Positions 53,675-55,920 of a DNA stretch of 64,000 nt are shown piece after piece. The stretch covers positions 186,001 through 250,000 of the forward strand of contig NZ_SODP01000003.1 in assembly GCF_004365355.1 (NCBI RefSeq), written 5' to 3'. The position numbers were made by a program, and so were the translations under genes. Under the pieces are notes generated by a model. The model saw only the letters and a list, made by a program, of their open reading frames with translations. It did not search any database and was not told where the DNA came from. Positions within the stretch are counted from its first letter, which is position 1. The number at the start of each line of letters is the position of its first letter. This stretch comes from Kribbella pratensis (GTDB lineage: Bacteria; Actinomycetota; Actinomycetes; Propionibacteriales; Kribbellaceae).

Positions 53675-54829
53675 ATGTCCAAAGCGGGACGGACTGCTGG
53701 TCTGATCGGGGCCGCGGTCGGAGTGCTGGCAGCGGGAGCTGCCGCCGGAGTCGCGGTCGAGCGCACTGTCATCGGCCGGCGGTCGGGTCAGCGCAAGCAG
53801 CTCGAGGCCGAGCCATTCGGGTCACAACGCGGTACGCCGCACATCTTCACCGCTGACGACGGCGTCGAGCTGTACGTCGAGGTGGACGAGCTGAAGCGCT
53901 CCCGGCGGCCTGCTCCGCCGCCGAAGCGCAGACTCGGCCTGACCGGGGCGGTGGGGCGGGGAAAGAATGAGCACAGCAAGCTGCCGCTGCCGCCCGAGGA
54001 CCTGACCGTGATCTTCGCGCACGGTTACGGGCTGAACATGGACGCCTGGCACTTCGAGCGCCGCGACCTGGCCGGGATCGGCACGATGGTGTTCTACGAC
54101 CAGCGTTCGCACGGCCGGTCCGGGCGGTCGCCGCGGTCGCACGTCAGCATCGAGCAGCTCGGTATGGATCTGTACGGGATCATCGAGCGGTTCGCGCCGA
54201 CCGGTCCGGTGATCCTGATCGGTCACTCGATGGGCGGCATGACGATCATGGCGCTGGCCGAGCAGCACCCGGAGCTCTTCGGCGACCGGGTGATCGGCGT
54301 CGGCCTGTGCTCGACCAGCGCGGGCGGGCTGGACGGCGTACCGATCGTGTTCCCGGGAAAGCTCGGCATGCTCGCGCGGTCCCTCGCGACGCCGACGGTC
54401 GCCGCTCTGGCGCGGATCCCCGATGTGGTCGAGCGCAGCCGGAAGGCCGGCTCGGACATCAGCTACCTGCTGACCCGGAAGTACTCGTTCGGCTCCGAGG
54501 TGCCGCCGGCGTTCACCGAGTTCGTCAACGAGATGATCGCGGCGACGCCGATCGAGGTGATCGCGGAGTTCTACCCGATCTTCGCGTTGCACGACAAGTT
54601 CGACGCCCTCGAGCCGCTGCAGAAGGTCGAGTGCGTGGTGATCAGCGGCGACAAGGACCACCTGACCCCGTTCGCGCATGCCGAGGAGATCGTCCGCCGG
54701 GTGCCCGGCGCCGAGCTCGTCGAGGTGAAGAACTGCGGCCACCTGGGCCTGATCGAGCACCACCGTGAATTCACCGCAGCCCTCCTTGGGATGATCGAAC
54801 GAGCCGAACAATCTTTAGGGGGTGTCTGA
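53675..54829 (+). CDS. Membrane-anchored alpha/beta hydrolase
   Basis: A 384-aa protein with an N-terminal hydrophobic helix (~8-28) and an alpha/beta hydrolase fold: FAHGYGLNMDAWHF, nucleophile GHSMGG, acidic SGDKDHLTP, His in NCGHLGL. Usual neighbour of alr and tsaE in actinobacteria. The final codons (GGV and the TGA) lie inside the left inverted repeat of the 170-bp element that follows, so the native C-terminus has been changed by the insertion. Substrate unknown. Confidence 0.88.
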   Translation: MSKAGRTAGLIGAAVGVLAAGAAAGVAVERTVIGRRSGQRKQLEAEPFGSQRGTPHIFTADDGVELYVEVDELKRSRRPAPPPKRRLGLTGAVGRGKNEHSKLPLPPEDLTVIFAHGYGLNMDAWHFERRDLAGIGTMVFYDQRSHGRSGRSPRSHVSIEQLGMDLYGIIERFAPTGPVILIGHSMGGMTIMALAEQHPELFGDRVIGVGLCSTSAGGLDGVPIVFPGKLGMLARSLATPTVAALARIPDVVERSRKAGSDISYLLTRKYSFGSEVPPAFTEFVNEMIAATPIEVIAEFYPIFALHDKFDALEPLQKVECVVISGDKDHLTPFAHAEEIVRRVPGAELVEVKNCGHLGLIEHHREFTAALLGMIERAEQSLGGV

Positions 54830-54985
54830 TGGTTTCACGCCTACTGCGGGGCACTCGGCACGGCACCTCGCCGTGCGGGGGGCGAAGGCCACGATGAACC
54901 CCGCATCGAGACCTTCGCCCCCGCACGCCGATGCACCGCACCGAGCACCTCCTCGCTACGGCGCGAAACCATCAGACACCCCCTA
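54816..54985. mobile_element. MITE-like element with TA-flanked inverted repeats
   Basis: 170 bp bounded by 26-nt inverted arms, 54816-54841 and 54960-54985, with one mismatch. Each arm begins with TA followed by GGGGGTGTCTGATGG, as for a TA target duplication with terminal repeats of the IS630/Tc1 or a similar type. The interior is itself palindromic: a 16-bp stem with one bulge (54872-54888 / 54912-54927) and an alternative 7-bp hairpin (54858-54864 / 54870-54876). It has no gene, so is non-autonomous. It lies in the hydrolase-tsaE junction. Confidence 0.7.
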
Positions 54986-54993
54986 GGACCTGT

Positions 54994-55920
54994 ATGACCG
55001 ACCTGCACGTCGTTGACGCCACAGCCGAACACGTCGACGACATCGTGACCGTGATCCATCACGCCTTCTCCGCTCGGCGGGTGCTCGACCCGCCGTCGAC
55101 CGCGTTGTCCGAGAACGCGACCACCGTTGCCGCGGCCGTTGCCGAGCACGGCGGATTGCTGGTGCTGAGCGACGGCGCCCCGGTGGGGGCGATGCTGTTC
55201 GAGCAGACCGGCGACGTCCTCAACCTGCGCCGCGTCTCCGTCGACCCGCGCTCCCAGGCCCGCGGCGTCGCGTCGGCGATGGTCGGCTGCGCCGAGGAGG
55301 TCGCGGTACGGCGTGGGCTCAGCCGGGTGAACCTGATCGCGCGCGTCGAACTGCCGGACACCGTGGAGTTCTGGCGGCGCCGCGGGTACTCCGTGGTCGA
55401 CCAGCAGGCGCACAACTTGATCTACGCGAAGGCGTTGCCTGTCGAGCTGACGGTTCCGACGGCCGAGGACATGCAGGCGATCGCTGAACAGCTGGCCGGT
55501 CAACTCCGCGCAGGCGATCTCCTGGTCCTGTCGGGCGACCTCGGCGCGGGCAAGACGACGTTCACCCAGGGACTCGGCGTCGGGCTGAAGGTCCGGGGAG
55601 CTGTGACGTCGCCGACCTTCGTCATCTCGCGGGTGCATCCGTCGTTGTCCGGCGGGCCTGCGTTGGTGCACGTTGACGCCTACCGGCTCGGTGGATTCGC
55701 CGAGTTGGACGACCTGGATCTGGACGCGAGCCTGGAGGATGCGGTCACGGTGGTCGAATGGGGCCACGGCATCGCGGAGCCGTTGGCGCAGGACCGCATC
55801 GAGATCGTGATCACCCGGGGCGACGACGACACCGACGAGACGCGGGCGTTGCGGATCACGCCGGTAGGTTCGCGCTGGGCGGCGTCCGGCGTACGGGTGT
55901 CTGTACTGGAGAAGAACTGA
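54994..55920 (+). CDS. tsaE: GNAT acetyltransferase fused to TsaE
   Basis: A 308-aa fusion. Residues ~1-145 are a GNAT domain (VSVDPRSQARGVASAMV, the acetyl-CoA loop; FWRRRGYSVV). Residues ~150-308 are TsaE, the ATPase of the t6A37 tRNA modification complex: P-loop GDLGAGKTT (~181-189), TSPTFVISRVHP, HVDAYRL, VVEWGHGIAE. TsaE alone is ~150 aa. It precedes tsaB by 1 nt. The ATG at 54994 lies 8 nt after the MITE-like element, so transcription and start context may have been reset by it. Confidence 0.9.
   Translation: MTDLHVVDATAEHVDDIVTVIHHAFSARRVLDPPSTALSENATTVAAAVAEHGGLLVLSDGAPVGAMLFEQTGDVLNLRRVSVDPRSQARGVASAMVGCAEEVAVRRGLSRVNLIARVELPDTVEFWRRRGYSVVDQQAHNLIYAKALPVELTVPTAEDMQAIAEQLAGQLRAGDLLVLSGDLGAGKTTFTQGLGVGLKVRGAVTSPTFVISRVHPSLSGGPALVHVDAYRLGGFAELDDLDLDASLEDAVTVVEWGHGIAEPLAQDRIEIVITRGDDDTDETRALRITPVGSRWAASGVRVSVLEKN

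Follow-up and report, generated by a model that had tools for sequence, protein, structure and literature searches.

Dispersed hairpin elements in Kribbella genomes with covarying arms and an orientation that follows replication

A stretch of 64,000 nucleotides from Kribbella pratensis (contig NZ_SODP01000003.1, positions 186,001 to 250,000; called the window in the following, at its full length) carries a palindromic element of 168 bp between an alpha/beta hydrolase gene and an essential gene encoding a GNAT-TsaE fusion protein. On balance, we take this element to be one copy of a Kribbella-wide family of non-autonomous mobile hairpin elements. The family is dispersed, multi-copy and without coding capacity. 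In four complete genomes, the core strand of the element runs with the replication fork at 85 of 86 places, and in all 119 copies that were folded the same strand forms the better hairpin, under RNA as well as DNA parameters. We refer to this better-folding strand as H; it is the - strand when the core orientation is +.

The element proper extends from 54817 to 54984 of the window (+, the orientation of its core), starting with A and ending with T. These limits are derived from matches of the joined flanks in relatives, from the ends of other copies and from the match to a covariance model. A sequence-only reading of the same DNA had described a doubly palindromic, TA-flanked element of 170 bp at 54816-54985 that resembled a miniature inverted-repeat transposable element (MITE). 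The palindrome is real, as inverted repeat and fold statistics agree. The outer inverted-repeat arms have 26 nt and are 96% complementary, two further nested pairs lie inside, and the RNA fold of -116 kcal/mol compares with a mean of -63 for shuffled sequences (z -13.9; none of 200 shuffles equals it). The outermost T and A of the longer span, however, belong to the flanking target and not to the element.

When the flanks of the window copy were joined, they gave a single uninterrupted match in 31 of 38 Kribbella genomes; in three of these (G020, G033, G002) the matching region is longer by 16 to 46 bases. Such a match of the joined flanks, with no element between them, shows that the element is an insertion. 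The sequence-only reading had proposed this comparison, and the pattern it regarded as contrary, conservation at this place in distant relatives and occurrence nowhere else in the genome, is not what we see. An element of the same arm class lies at this junction in G017, while apparently closer relatives (judged by eye) are without one, and other extra sequence is found there in G001, G021, G031, G035 and G036. Since the junction holds insertions in G017 and five more genomes, it is a recurrent insertion site. The extra sequence in G036, G001 and G035 (L101, L102 and L103) is a different GC-rich repeat, CGCTTCGCTCCCTGCGCTC...CAGTCCAGGCCGGG, which in L103 apparently occurs twice in tandem. In G031 (L104, G031:C1:7074560-7076100) about 1.3 kb are added, with a GC-rich hairpin first, and this may be an insertion sequence. 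Sites without the element were also seen in relatives for other copies, and the sites of copies differ between species. The junctions of L014, L105 and L106 were not clean, L108 offered no locus to read, L006 shows 12 extra bases in G019, and L005 was inconsistent between relatives.

The genome that contains the window gave 23 matches to the element by BLAST and 43 by the covariance model, the latter with E of 0.01 or better and falling into 26 distinct places. The search for arms elsewhere in the genome thus yielded 25 further places at this threshold, two of them short or borderline, and together with the uninterrupted sites in relatives these bear out the idea of a MITE-like, dispersed insertion. 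Seven of the own-genome places belong to a second subfamily, which is built on the same plan but has different arms. Model matches at E 0.001 were present in all 38 Kribbella genomes searched, 2 to 74 in each with both strands counted. A 20-base core pattern was searched in species genomes, and among the matches listed all were from Kribbella; plasmid records gave no match to the element. Shortened versions with matching ends measure 32 bp (L144), 53 bp (L112), 86, 98, 103 and 121 bp. At the site of the own-genome copy L005, G032 carries a different palindromic element (L200, G032:C1:4856960-4857380) with the ends GTCCTCCGTCC.../...GGACGGAGGAC. It has the apical motif in common with the family and may represent a third subfamily at this site. 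The available parts of the open-access literature on Kribbella and actinobacterial MITEs, replichore-linked palindromic repeats and REPIN orientation yielded no description of this family.

Copies insert without target duplication. TA does flank the window copy at either end, as had been noted, but it is not a target duplication: a duplication of TA fitted the window copy and several others and is contradicted by the ends of 116 copies. These comprise 15 own-genome copies, L099 and 100 of the about 150 top-scoring model matches listed, a sample in which degraded copies are under-represented. Of the 116, 36 show a dinucleotide repeat at their ends. The element starts with A in 31 of the 39 copies that are followed by a base other than A, and in 4 of these 39 its first base equals the following one; likewise, it ends with T in 53 of the 64 copies that are preceded by a base other than T. 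Beyond the A..T ends there is no repeat above chance (for one base, 25 copies against 24.5 expected). Two relatives have T|G at the L004 site, and the copy, A...T, lies between these two bases. The bases preceding the element on H are T in 77 and C in 73 of the 116 copies. Five near-identical second-subfamily copies in G032 (L421, L422, L423, L424 and L426), apparently from a recent burst, all lie at CT|AG, a context in which a 4-bp duplication cannot be told from blunt insertion. The flanks of near-identical family-1 copies are varied.

Orientation was scored for model matches at E 1e-8 or better, using the better-scoring strand at each place and a terminus set half a genome from dnaA. This gene was located in all 12 genomes asked, and four of the 11 single-contig genomes were then used. 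They were picked non-blind, after the pattern had been seen in G029, and copies shared by descent among the 86 places are not independent. At the 85 places that follow the rule, the weaker-folding strand is the lagging template and H is the leading-strand template. The own genome is in line with this. On its contig C2, which holds dnaA, all seven copies on one side and the single copy on the other have the expected orientation, and on C3, which holds the window and whose fork direction is a deduced one, all eight copies agree with one another. On C4 four of five copies are alike, the fifth being the 53-bp copy with near-equal scores on both strands; C1 has two and one. Among the core-pattern matches listed, 14 of 16 contigs with at least two matches are uniform in orientation. 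The five apparently young G032 copies all obey the rule as well. Gene direction was rejected as the cause of the orientation, as the flanking genes of 119 copies, called by codon-position composition, point either way (120 along the core strand, 104 along the other, 14 uncalled). In G029, no listed copy lies in the 2.6 Mb around the presumed terminus (C1, 5.65-8.30 Mb), where copies may be depleted.

The left outer arm (54817-54841, +, 25 nt) differs among copies, and the right outer arm (54960-54984, +, 25 nt) covaries with it. In the 15 own-genome copies, 21 of the 25 outer pairs show two-sided changes and 94.1% of the cells are paired. Neither the covariation score nor the paired percentage is reached by any of 500 shuffles, and slid registers score far lower. 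The outer 25 pairs of the 116 copies make up 2900 cells, which on the core strand are 2789 Watson-Crick, 56 A.C, 3 G.T and 52 other. The excess of A.C over G.T has a binomial probability of 1e-13, with copies treated as independent and equality expected in the absence of strand polarity. H therefore keeps G.T/G.U pairs and is the better hairpin. Since the model was built on the + strand and rewards G.T there, its bias runs against this finding. The conserved core with its internal loops (54842-54959, +) likewise pairs by G.T/G.U on the - strand at positions that are A.C on the + strand, its inner pairs being taken from the - strand fold. At its tip, the apical hairpin CACGATG...CATCGAG (54890-54910, +) also occurs in the second subfamily and in L200. 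RNAalifold gives -124 kcal/mol for H and -91 kcal/mol for the opposite strand. In 16 copies of the second subfamily, five of them near-identical, there are 11 A.C against 1 G.T. Mutational strand bias was dismissed as an explanation: the GC skew of the flanks on the core strand is +0.023 (slightly G/T-rich, leading-like), while that of the element is opposite (-0.16). Another idea considered was mismatch repair in which NucS would spare A.C.

The same polarity is seen in 14 pairs of copies that occupy the same site in different genomes. Eleven pairs came from the model matches listed and the own genome, and three were fetched by site (L199, L201 and L202); flank identity is weak on at least one side in L286/L008, L239/L287 and L211/L273, and L200 was excluded as a different element. 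One-sided changes keep the pairing of H 34 times and that of the other strand once, and 8 break it, although the structure was derived from the H fold, which favours the H-kept class for inner pairs. In addition, there are 15 two-sided Watson-Crick swaps and 11 mixed cells (6 both Wm; one each mx, xx, both xx, both mx and both Wx). The outer 25 columns are symmetric; there, 8 changes keep H, none the other strand, 5 break and 9 are swaps, five of these nine being transversions. The three site-fetched pairs account for 15 changes that keep H, 1 that keeps the other strand, 2 that break and 2 swaps. Two-sided transversion swaps point to single events, either template switching or copying from another element. 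The two-sided changes as a whole are probably single template-switch (quasipalindrome) events during replication, or the result of copying between elements. Two papers on template-switch maintenance of hairpins describe how a single replication event can alter both sides of a stem (PMC8794818, PMC6357072); they deal with a mutational process to which hairpins are subject, as distinct from a mobile element. The idea that arms are rewritten at each insertion found no support, as L199, L201 and L202 retain the arms of L004, L009 and L015 with 1-2 differences and near-identical young copies have arms in common. Nine of the 14 same-site pairs differ at alignment column 58, far more than at any other column; this may be a mutation hot spot or a product of inter-element copying.

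As to how the family spreads, we lean towards a non-autonomous hairpin that folds as a single strand and is inserted at replication forks by an activity not yet recognised. The mobile form would be the folded single strand. Insertion at the fork would leave H on the leading-strand template, which corresponds to the nascent lagging-strand sequence, and the weaker-folding strand would end up on the lagging template.

Several observations weigh against this reading. The passages available on published single-strand systems place the strand that is transposed on the lagging-strand template (PMC5371812), and H lies on the opposite one; either the moving strand is therefore the weaker folder, or the mechanism differs. 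Orientation could also be set by selection after insertion. One of the 86 places is an exception (L429, G034:C1:2770217-2770382), and two contigs, NZ_SJKD01000001 and NZ_SGXJ01000004, are mixed in orientation, perhaps through origin or terminus crossings or through true exceptions. A further measure of covariation, the number of further pair types, is not exceptional, as 40 of 500 shuffles reach it. The sequence-only reading had noted no transposase of the element's type in the window; in a whole-genome search of the own genome PF13340 was not found, and PF01797 (Y1_Tnp/RAYT) occurs in one of the 38 genus genomes, which is not the own genome; the enzyme searches covered these two families only. 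Finally, a screen of 1.67 Mb of fetched DNA, parts of which overlap, turned up no element of 200-5000 bp with paired family-1 ends, and with it no full insertion sequence of the kind that the sequence-only reading had advised looking for. As for L429, it departs by eye from the core consensus at several sites, which could mean that it is an old copy or one within an inverted segment.

Candidate parents were examined individually. A Y1/RAYT parent was not found in the search for PF01797; 5 of 14 control genomes were positive in this search. PF13340 is present in 8 of the 38 genus genomes at 12 loci, where family-like ends are not beyond chance among the best six inverted repeats inspected per locus. 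One locus in G015 (L158, about 1278-2287) holds an IS5-type insertion sequence of about 1.0 kb whose ends begin with AGTGCCTGTTCCTG. These ends share AGTGCC with some second-subfamily ends and match four family-1 arms at 7 to 10 of 19 positions. This likeness is at chance level, because 12 of the 127 AG-starting 19-mers of the locus match at 10 or more positions. An IS5/DUF4096 parent was rejected. The 13 unpaired GGGGGTGTCTGATGG matches, considered as possible ends of a full insertion sequence, turned out to be short hairpins, copies with a differing arm, or solo matches. The solo matches L145, L150 and L153 showed no transposase-like open frame by eye; no family search was run on them.

The main rival is a different account of the orientation, though we think it rather unlikely. 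Insertion would have no strand preference, and copies with the strong hairpin in the lagging template, which exposes single-stranded DNA, would be lost by deletion or through hairpin nucleases, as in SbcCD-type hairpin cleavage, leaving mostly copies of one orientation. The weaker folder being the lagging template at all but one place fits this account, and so do the internally shortened copies with intact ends, which are common. However, the apparently young G032 copies already obey the rule, and H retains its pairing via G.T in the outer columns, where no change favours the other strand; both speak against loss after insertion.

We see only a small chance that H encodes a structured RNA which is selected at each site and whose usage is reflected in the orientation. 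Pairing that tolerates wobble on one strand speaks for it, as do the one-sided changes at shared sites, with the caveat on inner pairs given above. Yet Rfam returned no family at gathering score for the element (sub-threshold microRNA-family matches only), the flanking genes have no consistent direction, and the sites vary between species. The sequence-only reading had suggested a role as terminator or promoter, but a simple consensus scan of 54700-55100, which does not cover all promoter types, gave no sigma-70-like hexamers and no stem plus T run (0 of each), so that no promoter-like or intrinsic-terminator-like site was detected around the window copy.

Spread without any transposase, as a replication error by template switching, seems to us similarly improbable. 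The nascent lagging 3' end, often CT, would shift to the AG beside an element copy elsewhere, copy the element, and then be pulled off by the hairpin formed in the new H strand; it would be able to return because the element itself ends in CT. If true, this route would account for the missing enzyme, the lack of duplication, the CT preference, the strand polarity and the orientation lock. Least probable of all is a conventional MITE derived from a DDE insertion sequence of the IS5/IS427 or IS630 type, which would duplicate TA and whose transposase would now be gone: the TA flanking the window copy at either end, the terminal inverted repeats and the size would suit it, but the end analysis assigns A and T to the element, the L004 copy sits in a T|G site, the ends differ among copies, and the genome has no PF13340 (IS630-type families were not searched for).

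The effect of the insertion on the neighbouring genes appears small. The 3' end of the hydrolase gene (53675-54829, +) is altered, and its TGA stop (54827-54829, +) comes from the left arm, which encodes GGV and the stop just as the sequence-only reading had it. In the nearest relatives, G019 and G034 (95% identity), the uninterrupted junction reads ...AACAATCCTTAGGAC(A/C)CGTATGACC, and the hydrolase TGA overlaps the next ATG start. The tail is SLGGV* in the window, SLGPV* in G034 and L-G-H-V-stop in G019. The element does supply a stop codon, then, but because the hydrolase of these relatives has its own stop three codons further on, in the overlap with the next start, this matters little and changes one residue of the tail relative to G034. 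A ribosome-binding-like AGGA (54985-54988, +) lies directly outside the element and is kept in the nearest uninterrupted sites. It has been retained before the start of the GNAT-TsaE gene (54994-55920, +), which follows the hydrolase gene after a gap of 164 nt. The element adjoins this gene, as had been described, with the start 9 nt past the end of the element proper. Insertion at this locus was probably near neutral, with the hydrolase end different by one residue and the stop/start overlap lost. A strong RNA structure may form in either transcript. Within the single open reading frame at 54994-55920, TsaE is joined to an N-terminal GNAT acetyltransferase domain. Downstream lies a gene with a TsaD-family domain and the size of TsaB, upstream one for alanine racemase.

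Correia elements, RUP and similar MITEs are small palindromic elements at TA that affect neighbouring genes; Correia elements and RUP have conserved terminal repeats, a TA duplication and a known insertion-sequence parent. The Kribbella elements are small palindromes too, but their ends vary and they make no TA duplication. IS200/IS605 elements make no target duplication, and Tn7 is a DDE transposon that does. Tn7 is large and without a hairpin, unlike the Kribbella element. As far as the passages available go, its TnsE pathway is alike in its strong orientation bias tied to replication direction (PMC5371812), and the IS200/IS605 elements IS608 and ISDra2 are alike in their dependence on hairpins and in an orientation that follows replication (PMC5371812, PMC6006769). 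They differ in having a Y1 enzyme, which was found in only one of the 38 Kribbella genomes, in the template strand, as the better folder of the Kribbella family lies on the leading template, and perhaps in the target, as the flank preference of the Kribbella family seems loose beside a fixed 5' target tetranucleotide. REPINs and the REP-RAYT system share dispersed, gene-less hairpin DNA with compensatory two-sided changes, and single-strand transposition has been proposed for REPINs; their ends are conserved and their middle is variable, the reverse of the conserved core and variable outer arms of the Kribbella family, and the passages available contain no orientation analysis (PMC3116915). 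REP elements also have RAYT (Y1_Tnp), which 37 of the 38 Kribbella genomes are without. The working principle of the family resembles that of the IS200/IS605 and REPIN systems, but membership fails on the enzyme, and the better-folding strand lies on the opposite template.

In known cases, single-strand transposition coupled to the fork goes with Y1 enzymes, and mobile hairpins go with RAYTs. The Kribbella family has the same signatures, with a near-absolute orientation lock in the genomes tested, but the Y1 enzyme is missing in nearly all of them. This implies that Kribbella has a mobilising activity that has gone unrecognised, or else a replication-based route without an enzyme. The opposed strand polarity offers a clear way to tell the models apart, and the elements would be lasting markers of fork direction.
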